Shown: piece after piece, positions 43,634 to 52,064 of the stretch
Layout: each line of letters begins with the position of its first letter
Numbering within the stretch: the first letter of the stretch is position 1
Source of the DNA: an uncultured Sporosarcina sp.
GTDB taxonomy: Bacteria; Bacillota; Bacilli; Bacillales_A; Planococcaceae
Direction: 5' to 3'
Assembly: GCA_948469885.1 (NCBI GenBank)
Contig: CAOKMT010000001.1
Coordinates: forward strand, 22,187-86,186
Length of the DNA: 64,000 nucleotides
Made by a program: the position numbers and the translations under genes
Notes under the pieces: model-generated
What the model was told of the DNA's origin: nothing
Seen by the model: only the letters and a program-made list of their open reading frames with translations
Database searches by the model: none

Positions 43634-44362
43634 ATGAAAGTGAAAGAAGTTGCCGAATTGACCGGCATTAGCGTCCGTACACTCCATCATTATGATGGCA
43701 TCGGTTTGCTTACACCAGATGGTACGACAGAGGCGGGTTATCGGCTTTATTCGGATGATAATTTGGCAACGCTTCAACAAATTTTGTTTTTCAGGGAACT
43801 CGGATTTTCGCTGAAAAAGATTAAAGAATTGCTCGATAGTCCTTCATTTGACCGTCAGAAAGCATTGGAAATGCAACACGGTATGCTCATCGAAAAGCGT
43901 GTCCGACTGGACGAAATGATCGACACAATCGAGAAAACAATCCAACAAGGAAAAGGGGAATACAACATGACGAACGAAGAGAAATTCAAAGGATTTGACT
44001 TTAGCAAAGGAAACCAATACGAAGCGGAAGCGAGGGAGCGCTGGGGCGGTGAAGCGGTCGATAAGGCGAATAAAAAGGCGAAGGACTTCGGTCCAGAAAT
44101 GGGCGAGGAAATGAACCGCATCTACCTCAACTTGGCAAGTCTTCGTCAGTTGGATCCAGCATCGGATGAAGCGCAAGAAGCCATTGGTGAGTGGTACGAT
44201 TTATTGAACAAAATGGGCGACTATTCGCTTGAGGCATTTGCCGGACTTGGCCAGATGTATGTCGATGATGAGCGGTTTCGGAAGAATATTGATCGGTTTG
44301 GGGAAGGGTTGGCAGTGTTTATGTGTGGGGCGATGGGGGTATATGCGAACAAAAGAAAGTAA
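43634..44362 (+). CDS. MerR-family regulator with TipAS domain
   Basis: 242 aa. N-terminal MerR winged helix (VKEVAELTGISVRTLHHYD, GYRLYSDDNLATLQQI) at 1-70, a dimerisation coil, and a C-terminal TipAS antibiotic-recognition domain (about 115-240, with EARERWGGEAV). Mta and TipA-like activators of multidrug genes have this layout. No transporter is adjacent. GGAGGG precedes ATG 43634. Confidence 0.88.
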   Translation: MKVKEVAELTGISVRTLHHYDGIGLLTPDGTTEAGYRLYSDDNLATLQQILFFRELGFSLKKIKELLDSPSFDRQKALEMQHGMLIEKRVRLDEMIDTIEKTIQQGKGEYNMTNEEKFKGFDFSKGNQYEAEARERWGGEAVDKANKKAKDFGPEMGEEMNRIYLNLASLRQLDPASDEAQEAIGEWYDLLNKMGDYSLEAFAGLGQMYVDDERFRKNIDRFGEGLAVFMCGAMGVYANKRK

Positions 44363-44743
44363 TATTGAACCATACAAATGGTTATTTAATTACAATTCGA
44401 CTTTATCATAATAAAAACCTTGACCTTTCCGGATTTTAGCAAAGGTCAAGGTTTTTATTGTAGTAGTCTTGTTGTGTAAGACGGTATATGTATTTAACAA
44501 TTAAGGAAAAGGAAGTCAATTTTTCAGGAAAAAAGAAGGAATATAGAATGTATGAGGGAAATAAGTATATATACCCATACATTGCTATAATCCTAACTTC
44601 ATCCTTTTATTGATAGAAAACATTCCGATATCCTATCGTAATGAAGGGGGAAGTTGTTTTGTGAATAAACCGCCATAAGCTACTTTTTAACAAAGTACCT
44701 TTTGAACTATAATCAGATAATATTTGTCAACAGGGGTGATTTT
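44363..44743. other. Intergenic region with terminator; upstream of cas3
   Basis: A strong bidirectional hairpin (AAAACCTTGACCTTT with AAAGGTCAAGGTTTT) occupies about 44415-44458. The remaining ~285 bp is AT-rich, carries no ORF, and should contain the cas3 promoter, which I cannot fix to a single pair of boxes. I found no copy of the CreR-like target here. Confidence 0.7.
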
Positions 44744-47161
44744 TTGGAGTATATTGCACATATTCGGCAAAAAGATAAAGAAATTCAAACAGTTGTAGCA
44801 CATTTATTGGAAGTGAAAGGACTAGCTGAAATATACGGTGGAAAAATAGGTGTAGGTCATATTGCGGGGCTTGCGGGTTTACTACATGATTTAGGAAAGT
44901 ACACGGAAGAATTTAAGGAGTATATTTTGGAAGCGGTTGCAAATCCGAACGAGGCACCAAAACGTGGAAGTGTAGACCATTCAACGGCGGGCGGAAAATT
45001 AATCTTTGATTTGTTACATAAACCAGGTGAACCTTATCGGGTACTTTTGGCTGAAATAGTAGGAAATGCAATTATTTCACATCATTCTTATTTACAAGAT
45101 TTTATTGATCCGAATTTAGAGCTGAATTATTTAAAACGTGTAAAAGAAAAAGAGTTAACAGAGTATGAATTTACAAAAATGTGTTTTTTTGAAAATGTCA
45201 TGAGTGAACAAGAGTTGAATGATTACATTGAAAAAGCGTTAGCCGAATTGACTGCATATTTGGATGTCAGTAAATCTATTCCGAGGCAAGCAATGTTTTT
45301 AAGTAAGTTCATATTTAGTACGTTAATCGATGCTGATCGTACAAATTCTAGGGAGTTTGAGGAAAACAAATACGGAGAAATAAACAAGTCGTATAAACAC
45401 CTGCTATCAAGTTACTACGACAAACTAATGAAGAAAATTAATGGATTTAAAAAAGAGGATGATGCAGATAATCCAATTAATGTTTTACGGAGTGAAATGT
45501 CCGATCAATGCGAGGAATTTGCTAAAAGACCGTCAGATATTTATACGTTGTCTATACCAACTGGAGGCGGAAAAACTTTAGCAAGCTTACGTTATGCTTT
45601 AAAACATGCACAGCTTTATGATAAAAAACGTATTATTTATATTGTTCCTTATACGACTATTATTGAGCAAAATGCAGATGAGGTAAGAAAGATACTAGAT
45701 GACAATGAGCGTATATTGGAACATCATTCTAACGTTGTCAATGATGAGTTAGATGACAATGAGGCAGACGATGGAAGGATAGCCCATTATGAGAAATTAA
45801 AATTGGCGAAGGATAATTGGGATGCACCGATTGTGTTTACAACGATGGTGCAATACTTGGATACATTTTATGCTTATGGCGGTCGGAACATAAGAAGGTT
45901 ACATAATTTGACAGATTCAATCCTTATATTTGATGAAGTTCAAAAAGTACCGACAAATTGTATTTCATTGTTTAATCATTCGTTAAACTTTTTAAAAGAG
46001 AATGCGAAATCAAGTATTTTGCTTTGTACTGCCACGCAACCTGCATTGAATTTTGTCAATGAAAAGTTGAATATAGGGAAGCAGGCGGAAATCATTTCTA
46101 ATATTGACGCAGTTGTTGAAAAGTTTAAACGGGTTCAAGTAGTTGATCGTGTGACAGAGGAACGGTTTGATAAAGAGAAATTGGTCGATTTTATCGCAGA
46201 TAAGTTTGACGAAGTGAATAATATTTTAGTTATATTGAACACGAAAATAGTTGTAAAGGACTTATACGAATCGTTAAAGGAAACATATGCGAAAGGAACA
46301 GTGTTCCATTTAAGTACATCGATGTGTCCGAATCACCGTACTATTATTTTGAATAAAATAAAGGATAGGTTGAAAAATAAAGAGCCTGTTATTTGTATAA
46401 GTACGCAACTAATTGAGGCGGGAGTTGATATTAGTTTTGAGTGTGTTATTCGTTCGCTTGCGGGACTTGATTCAATCGCGCAAGCGGCTGGTAGATGTAA
46501 TAGACATGGGAAAGACGAAATACGTTCTGTTTATGTTATTAATTATGAAGAAGAAAATTTAAAGTTTTTAAAAGAGATTGCATTAGGGAAAGAGATAGCC
46601 CAGAAGATATTGAAAGACTTAAGAATCAATTCGAGTGCACATGGTGGGAGTATTTTATCCATGCAGGCGATGAACTATTACTTTAGGTATTTTTATACGG
46701 AACGTCAGGTAGACCTTGATTATCCGATTAAAGGAATGAATGGAACGATGATTGAACTGCTTATGGCAGAAGAGCAAAATAACAGTTTGTATTTAGCTTA
46801 TAAATCAAGTTTAAACAAAGCAATTCCATTAGCGTTAAAAAATAGTTATCAAACAGCAGCAAGAAATTTCCAAGTCATAGACAGTCCAACAACATCAATT
46901 ATCGTACCATATAGGGAAGGAAAGGAACTAATTACTAAGCTAAATGGTGCAGCAACAATCGAAGATTTATCAAAAATTCTTCAAAAAGCCCAACGTTATT
47001 CAATTAGTGTTTATTCCTATCAACTTGATCTGTTAAAGAAATCGGGTAATTTAACAACGCTGTTTGATGATCAAGTTTACGCGTTAGTTGCAGGTGCTTA
47101 TGACGAGGAGTACGGATTAAATATTGAAGGAGATAGTAAGCAAGAAAGCCTCGTTTATTAA
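44744..47161 (+). CDS. cas3: CRISPR-associated helicase/nuclease Cas3 (type I-C)
   Basis: 805-aa HD nuclease plus DExH helicase that degrades targets recruited by Cascade. HD domain: AHLLEVKGLA, LLHDLGKYTEEF, DHSTAGGK and ISHHSYLQDF. Helicase: Walker A IPTGGGKTLASL, DEVQ box in LIFDEVQKVP, CTATQPAL, and motif VI in QAAGRCNRHGK. All look intact. TTG 44744 is chosen because AGGGGTGA precedes it; the in-frame codon at 44702 lacks a site. A 216-bp gap with the mini-repeat RNA separates it from cas5, so it is its own unit. Confidence 0.94.
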   Translation: MEYIAHIRQKDKEIQTVVAHLLEVKGLAEIYGGKIGVGHIAGLAGLLHDLGKYTEEFKEYILEAVANPNEAPKRGSVDHSTAGGKLIFDLLHKPGEPYRVLLAEIVGNAIISHHSYLQDFIDPNLELNYLKRVKEKELTEYEFTKMCFFENVMSEQELNDYIEKALAELTAYLDVSKSIPRQAMFLSKFIFSTLIDADRTNSREFEENKYGEINKSYKHLLSSYYDKLMKKINGFKKEDDADNPINVLRSEMSDQCEEFAKRPSDIYTLSIPTGGGKTLASLRYALKHAQLYDKKRIIYIVPYTTIIEQNADEVRKILDDNERILEHHSNVVNDELDDNEADDGRIAHYEKLKLAKDNWDAPIVFTTMVQYLDTFYAYGGRNIRRLHNLTDSILIFDEVQKVPTNCISLFNHSLNFLKENAKSSILLCTATQPALNFVNEKLNIGKQAEIISNIDAVVEKFKRVQVVDRVTEERFDKEKLVDFIADKFDEVNNILVILNTKIVVKDLYESLKETYAKGTVFHLSTSMCPNHRTIILNKIKDRLKNKEPVICISTQLIEAGVDISFECVIRSLAGLDSIAQAAGRCNRHGKDEIRSVYVINYEEENLKFLKEIALGKEIAQKILKDLRINSSAHGGSILSMQAMNYYFRYFYTERQVDLDYPIKGMNGTMIELLMAEEQNNSLYLAYKSSLNKAIPLALKNSYQTAARNFQVIDSPTTSIIVPYREGKELITKLNGAATIEDLSKILQKAQRYSISVYSYQLDLLKKSGNLTTLFDDQVYALVAGAYDEEYGLNIEGDSKQESLVY

Positions 47162-47237
47162 AAAATAAAACCTGTCCTTAAAAGGATAGGTTTTATAATA
47201 TCATGATGTGCATTTCAATCCACGCATTACTGCGACA
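47160..47237 (-). ncRNA. Candidate crRNA-like cas-regulating RNA (CreR-like)
   Basis: Minus-strand transcription unit in the cas3-cas5 gap. Promoter: -35 TTGTTC (47272-47267), 17 bp, perfect -10 TATAAT (47249-47244), predicted start near 47237. The RNA begins with a shortened CRISPR repeat (47236-47212, 25 nt): stem CGCA-GTAA-TGCG plus the intact 3' handle GTGGATTGAAAT. A pseudo-spacer beginning GCACATCATGATATTAT (47211-47195) comes next. A hairpin (AAAACC...GGTTTT) and a T-rich tail terminate it at about 47160. The pseudo-spacer matches 16 of 17 positions at 47291-47307 beside a TTC motif. Expression is inferred, not shown. Confidence 0.75.
47212..47236 (-). repeat. Orphan shortened type I-C CRISPR repeat
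   Basis: Reverse-strand copy of the array repeat (51266-51298) with the inner stem-loop cut by 8 nt, so the stem closes on a GTAA tetraloop. Both ends (GTCGCA and TGCGTGGATTGAAAT) are preserved, as needed for Cas5 recognition and the 5' handle. Confidence 0.9.
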
Positions 47238-47287
47238 ATTTGAATTATATCATGTTCAATATTACTGAACAATAAAAAATAATGGTT

Positions 47288-47335
47288 TTCGCACAACATG
47301 ATATTATTGACTTATCTCATTAGGGTGCGTATGAT
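47288..47335 (+). promoter_or_regulatory. cas5-cas8c-cas7 promoter with embedded pseudo-protospacer
   Basis: Sigma-A promoter: -35 TTGACT (47307-47312), 17 bp, -10 TATGAT (47330-47335). The TTC at 47288-47290 fits the known I-C PAM and is followed directly by GCACAACATGATATTAT (47291-47307), matching the CreR-like pseudo-spacer except at position 6. A Cascade footprint of about 35 bp would cover the -35 box and spacer. Confidence 0.8.
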
Positions 47336-47377
47336 GATAATAGTCAGAAATAAAAGTTAATTTTCGGAGGTGGAATA

Positions 47378-48097
47378 ATGTCGAAATGGAATGGGATTGA
47401 ATTTGATTTACGTGGAGATTATGCACTGTTTACAAATCCGTTGACACGAATGGGTGGAGAAAAAAGCTCGTACCCTGTGCCAACATATGAGGCGCTCAAG
47501 GGAGTAGTTTCTTCGATTTATTGGAAACCGTCGATTTTAATTCAGGTAGATTCGGTCAGGGTGATGAAGCCTATTCAAATGGAATCGAAAGGAATACGAC
47601 CGATTAACTACGGCGGTGGCAATACGCTCGCAAACTATACGTATTTAAGAGATGTTCATTATAAGGTGAAGGCGCATTTTGTTTTTAATCCACATCGTCC
47701 CGAACTTGCACATGATCATAATGAAAATAAACATTACAGTATACTGAAACGTTCATTAAAAGCAGGTGGTAGACGTGATATATTTTTAGGAACGCGTGAA
47801 TGTCAGGGATATGTGGAACCGACAAATTTTGAGGAAGGTGAAGGTTTTTACGATGACGCGGTGGATATGCATTTGGGAACAATGGTCCACGGTTTTAATT
47901 ATCCGGATGAAACCACTAAAGAGAAGTTAGAAGTACGGCTTTGGGACCCTGTTATGGAAAAAGGAATTATTAATTTTATTAAACCTGAAGAGTGCACAAT
48001 TATACGTCCTATTTCCGAGTTCGAACCGAAACTTTTTGATGAGAAGAATATGCAGTCGGTCGATGCCTTATATAAGGAATTGGAAGGAGGTCATTGA
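47378..48097 (+). CDS. cas5c: Cas5 (type I-C, Cas5d) crRNA endonuclease / Cascade subunit
   Basis: 239 aa. In type I-C, Cas5 replaces Cas6 and cuts the repeat to make crRNA, then caps the 5' handle in Cascade. Family features: N-terminal [38 protein letters not shown], and RECQGYVEP in the centre. CGGAGGTGG precedes ATG 47378. Directly abuts cas8c. Confidence 0.94.
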
Positions 48098-49975
48098 ATG
48101 CCGTGGCTTTTAAATTTACAAGAAACGTATGACGCAAACTTAAAAGAAGTTGGCGAAATAAAGAAAAATCGTTTTGGTAGGGAATATACCTTGCTTCCGA
48201 TAGCTCATACAACACAAAATGCTCATATTGAAGTGACAGTTACAGAAGAAGGAGAATTTCATTCCGCATTTGTAATTGGCAAAGATGATGCAAGTACACT
48301 CATCCCTAGCACGGTTGATTCTGCAAGTCGTGCAGGTGCCGCTGTATTTCCTTATGCACTTCACGATAAGCTAAATTATACAGCAGGAGATTTTGTAAAG
48401 TACGGCGGAAAAATAGGGAAGGAAGATCCGTTTAAAGCATACATCGATAATTTATCAAGTTGGGTAAACTCACCATTCAAAAACAAAAAAGTCGTGGCAA
48501 TTTATAATTATGTTAAAAAAGGATGCCTTATTAAGGATTTAGTCGCTGAAAAAGTACTGTTTTTAGATGAAAGCGGAAATATGATAGAAAAATGGCATAA
48601 AAAATACGAAGCGCTCCATGGGGAACGCCCACCGATTTTTACGTCTGTTACGGGAAATCAAGAAAGTGCTTTTGTGAGGTTCAAAGTACATTCGCCTGAC
48701 GATATCGTAATTGCACCTTGGCGGGATAAAGAAGTCTATGATTCGTTTGTTAACTTTTATCCGAAGCAAGTAGGAAATGAAGATATTTGTTTTGTCACTG
48801 GAAAACTATTGCCAAGTACTGATAAACATGCAAATAAAATTCGACATGCCGCGGATAAAGCGAAATTAATATCGGGTAATGATTCCAGGGGATTTACATT
48901 CAGAGGTCGTTTCAATAAAAGTGAAGAAGTTGCAAGTATTAGTTACGATACATCACAAAAAGCACATAATGCTCTTAAATGGCTAATAGATAAACAAGGG
49001 AAAATGATAGATCAGCGAGTGTTTCTTATTTGGGGAAATGAAACGATAGACCTAGGAGATCCTTTGGAAAATAGTTATACGTTTGGTGAAAATATAAATG
49101 TGAAGGTTGTTGCTACAACGAGTGATATTTATGCATTAGAGTTTTCTAAAGCATTAGATGGTTACAAACATAATCTAAAGTCTGATTTAAATGTGAATAT
49201 TTTAGTAATAGACTCTGCAACGACTGGGCGCATGGGTGTTTTATATTACCGTAATATGGACAAGGAACTTTATTTTGAAAGAATTAAAGAGTGGCATACG
49301 ACTTGTGTGTGGCGACACAGTTTTGTGCAAGACAAGCAAAGAAAATTCTTTATTGGAGCCCCGGCAACAAAAGATATTGCATTAGCTGCGTATGGTTCAC
49401 ATGCTAATGAGAAATTAGTAAAAGGTTTGATGGAACGCATGTTGTCTTGTGTAATTGAAGGGGCCAAAATTCCCCAAGATATTTTAAGAAGCGCAATTCA
49501 AAGAACGTCTAACCCGATTGCAATGGAATATTGGGAATGGGAAAAGTCATTGAGTATAACGTGTGCATTAGTGAACAAAGAGGAGGGGCTTGAAGTGGGA
49601 CTAGATAAGGGGAATACCCATCGGGATTACTTGTTTGGTAGAATGCTTGCTGTTGCTGATGCTTTAGAAAGAAGTGCGATGAGACCGGATGAGCGAAGAT
49701 CTACGAATGCAATCCGTTATATGAGTGCATTTTCAAAACATCCAGCACGTACATGGAATATAATTCAGGATAGCATTCAACCATATCAAGCAAGACTTGG
49801 TAAAGGTGCAATATACTACACTAGAATAATGGATGAAATAGGTTCGAAAATTAAAATTGAGGATTTTAATGATAGACCGTTATCAGGAATGTATTTGCTT
49901 GGATTATACAGTCAACGTCATGATATTTATACTAAAAAAGATGATAAAACGAATCCGAATGAAAAGGGGGAATAG
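48098..49975 (+). CDS. cas8c: Cas8c (Csd1) large Cascade subunit
   Basis: 625 aa, normal for Csd1. It recognises the PAM and recruits Cas3. Recognisable stretches: MPWLLNLQETYDAN at the start, GNDSRGFTFRGRF, SYDTSQKAHNALKWL, and a C-terminal region with DYLFGRMLAVADALERSAM and PLSGMYLLGLYSQR. In I-C the C-terminus can also give a separate Cas11-like small subunit by internal translation. ATG follows the cas5 stop directly with AAGGAGG before it. No damage seen. Confidence 0.93.
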   Translation: MPWLLNLQETYDANLKEVGEIKKNRFGREYTLLPIAHTTQNAHIEVTVTEEGEFHSAFVIGKDDASTLIPSTVDSASRAGAAVFPYALHDKLNYTAGDFVKYGGKIGKEDPFKAYIDNLSSWVNSPFKNKKVVAIYNYVKKGCLIKDLVAEKVLFLDESGNMIEKWHKKYEALHGERPPIFTSVTGNQESAFVRFKVHSPDDIVIAPWRDKEVYDSFVNFYPKQVGNEDICFVTGKLLPSTDKHANKIRHAADKAKLISGNDSRGFTFRGRFNKSEEVASISYDTSQKAHNALKWLIDKQGKMIDQRVFLIWGNETIDLGDPLENSYTFGENINVKVVATTSDIYALEFSKALDGYKHNLKSDLNVNILVIDSATTGRMGVLYYRNMDKELYFERIKEWHTTCVWRHSFVQDKQRKFFIGAPATKDIALAAYGSHANEKLVKGLMERMLSCVIEGAKIPQDILRSAIQRTSNPIAMEYWEWEKSLSITCALVNKEEGLEVGLDKGNTHRDYLFGRMLAVADALERSAMRPDERRSTNAIRYMSAFSKHPARTWNIIQDSIQPYQARLGKGAIYYTRIMDEIGSKIKIEDFNDRPLSGMYLLGLYSQRHDIYTKKDDKTNPNEKGE

Positions 49976-49977
49976 TA

Positions 49978-50838
49978 GTGTCAATATTAAAAAACAAGAT
50001 TGATTTTGCAGTTGTGTTATCAGTTACGAAAGCAAATCCTAATGGGGATCCGCTAAACGGTAATAGACCACGTCAAAATTATGATGGACATGGTGAAATT
50101 TCAGATGTTGCGATAAAAAGAAAAATTAGGAATCGTTTAATTGATATGGGAGACAATGTTTTTGTTCAATCTAATGAAAAAAGAGTGGATGAGTTTACCA
50201 GCTTAAGAGAACGCGCGGAAAAAAAAGAATCTTTGAGTCTTGTGATGAAAGATAAAAATAGAACCAGTGAAGATTTTGCTGCAGTTGCTTGTGAAGAATG
50301 GATTGACGTGCGAAGTTTTGGTCAAGTCTTTGCATTCAAAGGAACCGGTGCGAAAGGGGTTTCGGTTGGAATAAGGGGTCCTGTGTCCATCCATACGGCA
50401 ACAAGTATCGATCCAATTGATATAAATAGCATGCAAATTACAAAAAGTGTAAATACAGAACCAGGAGAAGGCAAAGGATCGGACACAATGGGAATGAAGC
50501 ATCGTGTAGATTTTGGTGTTTATATCTTGTACGGGAGTATTAACACACATCTTGCAGAACGTACAGGGTTTACGGAAGAAGACGCAGAGAAAATAAAACA
50601 ATCGCTTATCACTTTATTTGAAAATGATGCTTCATCGGCACGACCAGAAGGAAGTATGGAAGTCAATAATGTCTATTGGTGGACACATGAAACAAAACTT
50701 GGTCAGTATTCATCAGCAAAGGTGCACCGTTCTTTAAAATTAGAGAAAAATGTGGATGAGCCTAAAGAGTTTTCACATTACGATGTGAAATTAGAAGAGT
50801 TAGAAGGACTAAAAGTTAATGTTTTCGAAGGACAATAA
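49978..50838 (+). CDS. cas7c: Cas7 (Csd2) backbone Cascade subunit
   Basis: 286 aa. Polymerises along the crRNA spacer as the Cascade backbone. Typical Csd2 features: LSVTKANPNGDPLNGNRPRQ at the N-terminus, DVRSFGQVFAF, GIRGPVSIHTATSIDP, MGMKHRVDFGVY, and a C-terminal SSARPEGSMEVNN followed by WWTHE. GTG 49978 with GGGGGAA upstream, 2 bp after cas8c. Intact. Confidence 0.95.
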   Translation: MSILKNKIDFAVVLSVTKANPNGDPLNGNRPRQNYDGHGEISDVAIKRKIRNRLIDMGDNVFVQSNEKRVDEFTSLRERAEKKESLSLVMKDKNRTSEDFAAVACEEWIDVRSFGQVFAFKGTGAKGVSVGIRGPVSIHTATSIDPIDINSMQITKSVNTEPGEGKGSDTMGMKHRVDFGVYILYGSINTHLAERTGFTEEDAEKIKQSLITLFENDASSARPEGSMEVNNVYWWTHETKLGQYSSAKVHRSLKLEKNVDEPKEFSHYDVKLEELEGLKVNVFEGQ

Positions 50839-51052
50839 CGAAGATGAATACCTAATGCCTTCAGGTATTCAACATTTTAAGTTTTGTAAACGTCAATGGG
50901 CGTTAATTCACATTGAACAACAATGGGAGGAAAATGTAAGAACAATTGAGGGCAAACATCTACATGAAAAGGCAGATCAACCCTTTATTCGAGAAAAAAG
51001 GAAAAACAAATTAATTGTCAGAGGGATGCCCGTTCAATCAAGGCGAACATGA
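50819..51052 (+). pseudogene. cas4: Truncated cas4 (adaptation remnant)
   Basis: Only the N-terminal ~70 codons of Cas4 remain: MPSGIQHFKFCKRQWALIHI, then EQQWEENVRTIEGKHLHEKA and IVRGMPVQS. After that the frame runs into leader-like DNA and stops at 51052. A normal Cas4 is about 220 aa with four cysteines; three are gone. No cas1 or cas2 follows. The start overlaps cas7 by 20 bp as in intact I-C operons. Confidence 0.9.
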
Positions 51053-51196
51053 TTTTCTGGGGAGGTTCGCACCAATAAATAACTCTTTATAAGTGGAAAA
51101 TTAAAAGAAAATCAAGTTTCATCCTTTTTGAGGGGTGTTTTGGCGAATATCATCTTGAAAAGAGGGAAAAAATAACGTTTTTAACTGAAATTCGCT
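51038..51196 (+). other. CRISPR leader fused to the cas4 stump
   Basis: From about 51038 the DNA has a GCGAAC...GGTTCGC dyad (51043-51070) and an AT-rich stretch ending in ATTCGCT before repeat 1, which resembles the leader normally found after cas2 in I-C loci. The deletion that removed the rest of cas4, cas1 and cas2 therefore ends near here. Confidence 0.65.
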
Positions 51197-51362
51197 GTCG
51201 CGTCCTTCATTGGATGCGTGCATTGAAATAAGGGAAGAAATCGAAGACCGCCATTGGACAATGTAGTCGCATCCTACATTGGATGCGTGGATTGAAATAG
51301 TCTTGTCCATTCGATTCACATCCTTTTGAGTGTCGCACTCTTTATGAGTGCGCGGATAAAAT
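51197..51362 (+). CRISPR. Degenerate type I-C CRISPR array, three repeats and two spacers
   Basis: Repeat 1 at 51197-51229 (33 nt, GTGC instead of GTGG before ATTGAAAT), spacer 1 at 51230-51265 (36 nt), repeat 2 at 51266-51298 (best match to consensus), spacer 2 at 51299-51331 (33 nt), and a degenerate terminal repeat at 51332-51362. The stem of repeat 3 (CACTC/GAGTG) differs on both arms from repeat 2 (CATCC/GGATG), keeping the pairing. Same direction as the cas genes. Confidence 0.9.
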
Positions 51363-51686
51363 TTCCCCGCTTCCCACACTCACTTATTTGTCACCATTTC
51401 TTGTAAACGCCTGAATAATTCGTATTTTCGTTCCTTAATCAATCAAAATTCATACCAAACAAAGGCAATCGGGTTCATACTAGGTTGTCTTTTTTTGTTT
51501 CCTTAAAAATATTGTGGTGCTCAATTTTGCAACATATGCAGGTGTCTTGGACATCCGCTACATGTTCCGACATCATATGACAATTATATCGCTGACATTA
51601 CAAGTTTACGAGAAACGTTTGAAAAGGGATTCCACAGGTTAGTTAAGAGAGTGTAGACGGATAAACCAAAAAAGGAGAGAGTAACA
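51363..51686. other. Gene-free stretch after the array
   Basis: No ORF of note. A possible weak sigma-B promoter (GTTTAC at 51604-51609, 16 bp, GGGATT at 51626-51631) lies about 55 bp before the KGG-repeat gene, followed by AAAGGAGAGA as its ribosome site. Confidence 0.4.
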
Positions 51687-52064
51687 ATGGCAAAAGATAA
51701 CAATAAAAGAAATCGAAATAATGACGACGGTGCAATGACTGTGGAAGAGGCGGGTCGTAAGGGCGGAGAAGCGACGGCGCGTAATCACGACCGAGAATTT
51801 TATGAAGAAATTGGACGTAAAGGCGGCGAAGCGACAGCGGAAAATCATGACCGCGAATTTTACGAGAAAATCGGTAAAAAAGGCGGAGAAGCCACTGCCG
51901 AGAATCATAACAAGGAATTTTATGAAGAAATTGGTCATAAAGGCGGGGAAGCTCGTGCCCGACAAGACGGTGATAACGATGACAACAACCGTGAGCGAAA
52001 AATGAGCAAATCAGAAGCGGGGCGTAAAGGCGGGAAACATAGCCACGATAACGACAATCGTTAA
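51687..52064 (+). CDS. KGG-repeat stress protein (GsiB/Con-10 type hydrophilin)
   Basis: 125-aa, highly hydrophilic protein built of about five copies of a ~20-residue unit with EEIGRKGGEATAENHDREFY as consensus (starts near residues 17, 37, 57, 77 and 108). General-stress hydrophilins such as B. subtilis GsiB protect against desiccation or glucose starvation and are under sigma-B. The 60-bp DNA repeats are similar. A diverged paralogue lies at 57378-57800. Good ribosome site. Confidence 0.88.
   Translation: MAKDNNKRNRNNDDGAMTVEEAGRKGGEATARNHDREFYEEIGRKGGEATAENHDREFYEKIGKKGGEATAENHNKEFYEEIGHKGGEARARQDGDNDDNNRERKMSKSEAGRKGGKHSHDNDNR

Follow-up and report, generated by a model that had tools for sequence, protein, structure and literature searches.

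Liu et al. (2023, Cell Host Microbe, doi 10.1016/j.chom.2023.08.005) are said to use the name CreR for cas-regulating RNA. Reviews describe CreRs as mini-CRISPRs (clustered regularly interspaced short palindromic repeats) with a proposed autorepression (PMC13131331, PMC12737573), and name them for types I-B, I-E and V-A (PMC13131331). We have analyzed 64,000 nucleotides (nt) of DNA from an uncultured Sporosarcina sp. (GenBank assembly GCA_948469885.1, contig CAOKMT010000001.1, positions 22,187 to 86,186 of the forward strand), referred to as the window, which carry a type I-C locus with a shortened CRISPR repeat and a guide between cas3 and cas5. Very probably, this element is a type I-C CreR by which Cascade represses itself with a guide against its own promoter. 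It shares the mini-CRISPR and the proposed autorepression with the CreRs of the reviews. Unlike the named CreRs, it belongs to a type I-C effector, the repeats of which are cut by Cas5c and not by Cas6, it consists of a single shortened repeat with its own putative promoter and terminator in the cas3-cas5 gap, and its match extends to about 16-17 nt in most of the loci called below. Cas5d is the repeat-cutting enzyme of type I-C (PMC5965380). No I-C CreR is described among the literature matches listed, and an I-C prediction in the primary CreR paper is possible; I-C looks like a new CreR subtype as far as the literature shows, because the reviews cited name I-B, I-E and V-A.

Other RNAs show partial similarity. 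CreA of CreTA, found in I-B haloarchaea and I-F Acinetobacter (PMC8501985, PMC9458426, PMC10097628), also combines a degenerate repeat with a guide. The haloarchaeal CreA requires a seed of positions 1-5 and 7-11 beside a TTC protospacer adjacent motif (PAM) and tolerates free changes at positions 6 and 12 (PMC8501985). The window element shares these features, but CreA represses a toxin RNA whereas the target in the window is the cas5 promoter. The long-form trans-activating CRISPR RNA (tracrRNA) of type II-A likewise mediates RNA-guided autorepression of a cas promoter via a short match (PMC8730458), but it acts with Cas9, and effector and RNA are unrelated to those considered here. Racr solitary repeat units also are solitary repeats behind a promoter; they are, however, inhibitors borne by viruses or plasmids which act via the repeat and not via a DNA target (PMC10651486), whereas the window element lies inside a cas locus and has a conserved target. 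Structured RNAs of CRISPR operons have been surveyed, with 34 I-C candidates; the intergenic one described there lies about 300 bases upstream of cas3, a different place (PMC9067536).

The mini-repeat RNA gene and its target in the window

The cas3-cas5 gap of the window comprises 216 nt. The elements relevant to the predicted CreR are the following:

47267-47272, minus strand: -35 box TTGTTC (weak) of the CreR gene; from sequence, absent from the consensus scan list
47244-47249, minus strand: -10 box TATAAT of the CreR gene; from sequence, 17 nt from the -35 box, predicted start at about 47236
47212-47236, minus strand: shortened CRISPR repeat (mini-repeat) of 25 nt, GTCGCAGTAATGCGTGGATTGAAAT; from repeat search and sequence
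47195-47211, minus strand: pseudo-spacer (guide) GCACATCATGATATTATAA, beginning at 47211, with 17 nt preceding the terminator stem; from repeat search and sequence
47158-47196, minus strand: terminator-like hairpin (47196-47165) and U-rich tract; from RNA folding, z -2.5
47288-47290, plus strand: PAM TTC; from sequence, with TTC ahead of the target in 47/51 exact-handle loci (see below)
47291-47307, plus strand: CreR target (protospacer) GCACAACATGATATTAT in the predicted cas5 promoter, directly 3' of TTC; from repeat search and sequence match
47307-47335, plus strand: predicted cas5-cas8c-cas7 promoter TTGACT-17-TATGAT; from consensus match

The initial annotation, which had been made from the letters of the window, placed these elements correctly to within 1-2 bases (47237 for the start, now about 47236). 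The 25-nt mini-repeat is present on the minus strand at 47236-47212, and its 3' 16 nt are identical to an array repeat. Regarding the sigma-A promoter assumed ahead of it, the boxes TTGTTC and TATAAT exist with a spacing of 17 nt, but the promoter is missing from the consensus scan list, the -35 box matching 3/6 positions where the scan requires 4. Likewise, the hairpin and T-rich terminator proposed for the 3' end is obtained by folding, but a terminator scan listed none at its thresholds. On the plus strand, the hairpin probably acts for cas3 as well. Rfam covariance models run over 46900-51500 gave two matches at E ≤1, neither of them to a CRISPR family, with scores that fell far short of the gathering score in both cases. 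Since the array repeats, two in number, were equally unmatched, this test says little.

The target follows TTC directly, and the mismatches fall where they had been annotated: pseudo-spacer and target match at 16/17 positions, with a mismatch at position 6 and the next ones at 18 and 19. The same guide/target pair was picked up as a 17-nt inverted pair in the repeat list of the window. The annotated cas5 promoter was found by the consensus scan, and the target touches its -35 box; the scan returned a mean of 2.6 promoter-like sites in shuffled sequence, and the cas5 promoter is a reading and no test. For scoring, positions 1-17 except 6 and 12 were used (15 in all). The target is the sole non-self 15/15 site in the window; the runners-up have 12 matches and are without TTC. 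With up to three mismatches, TTCGCACANCATGATNTTAT occurs at two sites of the window, exactly in the target and with three mismatches in the pseudo-spacer itself, as compared to 0.05 expected, and TTCGCACANCATGA has one exact site in the draft genome, the target, together with two forward sites with one mismatch. As the initial annotation had cautioned, CATGATAT is also present within the CreR promoter. A protein operator shared by both promoters stays open on the data of the window alone, and we therefore compared related loci.

Guide and target co-vary in related loci

Type I-C loci were gathered by Cas5c searches in the genus and family of the window, in its class and in its phylum (at most 30 loci fetched per search at class and phylum level), and from named genome contigs (best 80 of 369). 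A genome search at the order level equalled the family search result (261 genomes, 43 matches), and a DNA-level plasmid search with the whole locus gave nine records with distant I-C loci. Cas5c reached E 1e-20 or better in 168 of the 171 loci, and removal of 11 exact copies (over 180 nt) left 157 distinct ones, near-copies included. L061, from a Sporosarcina metagenome-assembled genome, is an exact copy of L002, from the genus of the window, over the compared stretch. The repeat handle was defined as [AG][TC][AG]GATTGAAA and sought within 1400 nt upstream of cas5, with the guide starting one base after GATTGAAA. Exact handles occurred 51 times on the minus strand (one each in 51 loci) and never on the plus strand of the 157 distinct loci; one-mismatch handles occurred 26 times on the minus and 34 times on the plus strand.

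The stretch from the handle to cas5 (plus 20 nt) contained a TTC-flanked target with at least 12/15 matches in 47 of the 51 exact-handle loci. Together with two one-mismatch handles, this gave 49 called pairs. Dinucleotide-shuffled gaps (handle to cas5, 200 shuffles per locus) yielded such a target in 20/10200 cases, and none of 1196 real array spacers from 31 loci matched its own gap. When guides were swapped between loci, 308/2550 reached the same match level, a figure inflated because many guides begin with ATATA. Furthermore, in a search blind to the PAM (450 nt, both strands), the best window scored at least 12 and adjoined TTC for 43/51 exact minus-strand handles but for 0/34 plus-strand handles (one mismatch each); 52 pairs of handle and window scored at least 12 in this test, 45 of them with TTC. 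Elsewhere in the 80 named loci, 28 solitary exact handles were found, and a TTC site with 12 matches accompanied one of these, in L040 (5.2 kb downstream, at an array edge).

The 49 called pairs contain 30 different seeds and 38 different guide 14-mers. Across most loci, guide and target change together while TTC stays. The initial annotation had asked whether relatives might keep the target and lose the match in the guide; the outcome was favourable in most loci, with co-change of guide and target, retention of TTC and a mismatch at position 6. Such co-evolution lies outside the published CreR definitions known to us and lends support to the assignment. TTC is the PAM of type I-C, and these loci support it in this role.

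Matches at guide positions 1-17 numbered 49, 49, 49, 49, 49, 5, 49, 49, 47, 47, 49, 16, 45, 43, 49, 40 and 22 out of 49, and positions 18-30 gave 9-21. Positions 6 and 12 had not been scored, so the low values there do not stem from the procedure. The cut-off contributes to the high values at 1-5, 7-11 and 13-17, but it does not produce the drop at 17. Position 6 matches below the expectation from base composition (5/49, against 11.1 on average; P about 0.005 by permutation), positions 12 and 18 are neutral, and the commonest pair at position 6 is guide T over target A (23/45). In type I-E structures Cascade flips out positions 6, 12 and 18, i.e. every sixth guide base (PMC5965380). This 6-nt periodicity is the pairing signature of Cascade and not one that a protein operator would give. 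Homology between guide and target ends at about 17 nt, about where the terminator stem begins, and the R-loop would therefore be limited to about 17 nt.

Targets lie on the plus strand in 45/49 calls. For 30 of these 45, the best sigma-A-like -35 box is located 14-28 nt downstream from the start of the target, and a full Cascade footprint would therefore cover the promoter; the promoter was chosen as the best of its region, so the spacing is no test by itself. Promoter-like box, handle and hairpin recur across the called loci. An exact TATAAT is found within 55 nt ahead of the handle in 26/49 of them, a count without shuffle control, and AACCTATC occupies the same place in the hairpin in 18/49, in many genera. 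This sharing of AACCTATC across many genera exceeds what a terminator should need.

No pair was called in 108/157 distinct loci, and CreR is not claimed for all I-C systems; in loci from genome searches, no more than about 1.5 kb ahead of the match was covered. Calls were obtained in 48/61 loci with a cas3-cas5 gap of at least 100 nt vs 1/93 with a shorter one, three gaps being not measurable; in L033, the sole short-gap call, the gap was mis-measured via an open frame in another phase. On a Cas5 tree of 156 proteins, the CreR-called loci fall into several clades and require 31 changes, be they gains or losses, at least nine of which are forced by starred branches. Shuffles gave a mean of 41.9 changes and 0/500 as low as 31, in a set that includes near-copies.

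Predicted autorepression and competing explanations

As in described CreRs, a repeat-like sequence lies outside the array and near the cas genes, at 47212-47236 in the window and in the 49 called loci, and its guide finds TTC and 16/17 matches at the promoter of its own cas operon (a promoter read by consensus only). Anatomy and evolutionary signature support a type I-C CreR, and we infer its function with high confidence. A small RNA would start at about 47236 on the minus strand and be loaded by Cas5c and Cascade through the repeat-derived handle, with the terminator hairpin substituting for the 3' part of the repeat. Loaded Cascade would recognize TTC and 47291-47307, pair at positions 1-5, 7-11 and 13-17 with position 6 flipped out, and cover the -35/-10 region of the cas5-cas8c-cas7 promoter. 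Short R-loops block cleavage in a type I-F1 study (PMC7296934); by analogy, an R-loop of about 17 nt may be too short to license Cas3 in type I-C. The outcome would be a reversible repression of Cascade by Cascade, and CRISPR RNAs (crRNAs) or inhibitors that draw Cascade away would relieve it.

Several observations weigh against a CreR of this kind. No target was called in the exact-handle loci L031, L046, L096 and L100, L100 showing a seed match only (10/10, minus strand), and next to the one-mismatch handles of L040, L043 and L087 no TTC site exceeded 7/10 seed matches. In L132, the called target coincides with the start of cas5 and has mismatches at positions 6 and 12; its distance of about 510 nt to the handle is the reason why the PAM-blind test missed it. 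For L110-L112, a self-palindrome had a higher score than the TTC site. Eight plasmid records out of 29 with a Cas5 match served as a held-out check, and a mini-repeat in the gap was present in one (L175), where the TTC site reached 9/10 in the seed and 10/15 overall, below the cut-off. Concerning the RNA itself, the 4-bp repeat stem is absent from the minimum-energy fold of the RNA predicted for the window, and the stems of mini-repeats are no longer than those in shuffled sequence; no hairpin claim rests on stem length. L175 is a plasmid of Paenibacillus amylolyticus; its near-seed TTC site is on the minus strand, and its cas3-cas5 gap of 536 nt contains a small open reading frame (ORF) seen by eye.

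It is improbable that the window carries an antitoxin-type guide instead, i.e. a CreA of CreTA or CrePA, the controlled product of which, a toxic small RNA or protein, would lie between target and cas5. Small ORFs behind a ribosome-binding-site-like motif do occur in other I-C loci, in which the target is far away, and the haloarchaeal CreT mini-ORF has two consecutive AUA codons (PMC8501985). A frame of 8-11 codons in the window (47325-47360, plus strand) contains ATG ATG ATA ATA and overlaps the -10 box of cas5 at 47325-47334, a likeness to the tandem AUA of CreT which is perhaps due to chance. However, there are 87 nt from the first base of the target to the start of cas5, and transcription is predicted to start at about 47342, downstream of the first codons of the 8-11 codon frames, which lie within the -10 box or ahead of it. 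Past that point, the sole frame from ATG, GTG, TTG or CTG before cas5 has two codons. The promoter of a toxin RNA or ORF, which is the target in CreTA, was not found in the window, where no frame of more than two codons starts between the predicted transcript start and cas5; this test covers ORFs, not an ORF-less toxic RNA.

A protein repressor bound to an operator shared by the two divergent promoters, with the likeness of guide and target as a by-product, is quite improbable. The copy of CATGATAT in the CreR promoter fits it, as does the observation that in 21/45 loci of the PAM-blind set guide positions 1-11 form a near-palindrome, with at least 4 of 5 arm pairs; yet 24/45 guides are not near-palindromic, and 30 different seeds would demand many repressor specificities. 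Furthermore, an operator gives no reason for TTC before one copy and a repeat handle before the other, or for freedom at positions 6 and 12 with 1-5, 7-11 and 13-16 fixed. Hence, the caveat of the initial annotation is right about the additional copy, but the operator does not account for the 6-nt periodicity or TTC.

A decoy repeat similar to phage Racr RNAs, which would tie up Cas proteins without a DNA target, is very improbable. A type I-C Racr (RacrIC1) has been described (PMC10651486), and the element is a solitary repeat unit behind a promoter as in Racr; however, 47/51 exact-handle loci have preserved, upstream of cas5, a guide together with a PAM-flanked target that is cognate to it, whereas Racrs are solitary repeats of viruses and plasmids. 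A leftover of a decayed CRISPR array or a chance match, suggested by the short local array and the degenerate third repeat-like sequence at about 51332, can practically be dismissed: the shuffled-gap, array-spacer and window-wide controls contradict a chance match, a promoter-like box, a handle and a hairpin turn up again among the called loci, and the co-variation data already contradict both.

Dozens of related bacteria present the same arrangement with different yet matching guide and target sequences. Guide/target pairs obeying the 6-nt rule of Cascade in dozens of natural cases would provide a natural map of what binding without cutting needs, and the signature is a simple one for locating such RNAs elsewhere. 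The predicted RNA feedback loop becomes testable in Halalkalibacterium (Bacillus) halodurans, where type I-C was characterized (PMC5965380) and whose locus is L032.

Candidate variants in other loci and genomic context of the window

In 15 calls the target is on the plus strand 150-350 nt before cas5. In nine of these (L024, L030, L032, L045, L053, L054, L056, L060 and L162), the targeted promoter is followed by an ORF of 17-38 amino acids (aa) that is preceded by a ribosome-binding-site-like motif, a count without chance control; the same script found no such ORF in L039, L042 and L109-L112. The ORFs in L030, L032, L045, L053, L054, L056, L060 and L162 comprise 24-38 aa, and those of L056 and L162 are related. 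Three loci with longer gaps (L027, L073 and L114) contain a solitary HTH_Tnp_1 (IS3 OrfA-like) ORF between target and cas5. The remaining 206-487 nt up to cas5 are short for an OrfB; the three loci come from Brevibacillus, Neobacillus and a genome of the family of the window and belong to different Cas5 clades. In L094 the target is located 884 nt upstream of cas5, and a 140-aa ORF behind the targeted promoter matches nucleoside deoxyribosyltransferase weakly, at an E value (8e-4) that does not pass the Pfam cut-off.

Since mini-ORF RNAs constitute the CreT toxins of haloarchaea (PMC8501985), the small-ORF and solitary-ORF loci may be I-C variants of CreTA or CrePA, which we regard as a lead rather than a result. 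Tentatively, and with more doubt than confidence, one may envisage a widespread two-arm I-C module in the cas3-cas5 gap, in which CreR autorepression in window-like loci is accompanied, in longer gaps, by repression of a tiny ORF or a solitary helix-turn-helix (HTH) or enzyme-like ORF as an undescribed CreTA/CrePA addiction module, with the mismatch at position 6 as if selected.

The proteins of the window locus are ordinary Cas proteins by Pfam:

44702-47161, plus strand: cas3 (819 aa); Pfam Cas3-like_C_2, DEAD, HD
47378-48097, plus strand: cas5c, repeat-cleaving subunit; Pfam Cas_Cas5d 2.5e-38
48098-49975, plus strand: cas8c (csd1); Pfam Cas_Csd1 1.6e-107
49978-50838, plus strand: cas7c (csd2); Pfam Cas_Cas7 9.6e-82
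50819-51052, plus strand: truncated cas4 remnant (77 aa); Pfam Cas_Cas4 3.8e-6 over 40 residues
51197-51298, plus strand: local array with one spacer between two I-C repeats; from repeat search

The genome of the window has a single Cas5c match, and Cas1 was not found in this draft genome, which was judged 88% complete. Its contigs C13, C86, C96 and C114 carry 43 I-C-type repeats in other repeat versions, away from the cas locus. Given these 43 repeats on four other contigs, the ordinary guides of Cascade are probably numerous, and a CreR could be in competition with them. The reading of the two-repeat local array as the sole one of the genome was dropped on account of the same repeats. The local array is followed by a degenerate third repeat-like sequence at 51332-51364.

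Upstream of cas3, the region 43634-44459 holds a TipAS-type MerR regulator and, after it, a perfect 19-nt inverted repeat at 44410-44459. On the other side of the locus, a 125-aa ORF at 51687-52064 has internal repeats of 60 nt; it may resemble KGG-type stress proteins.

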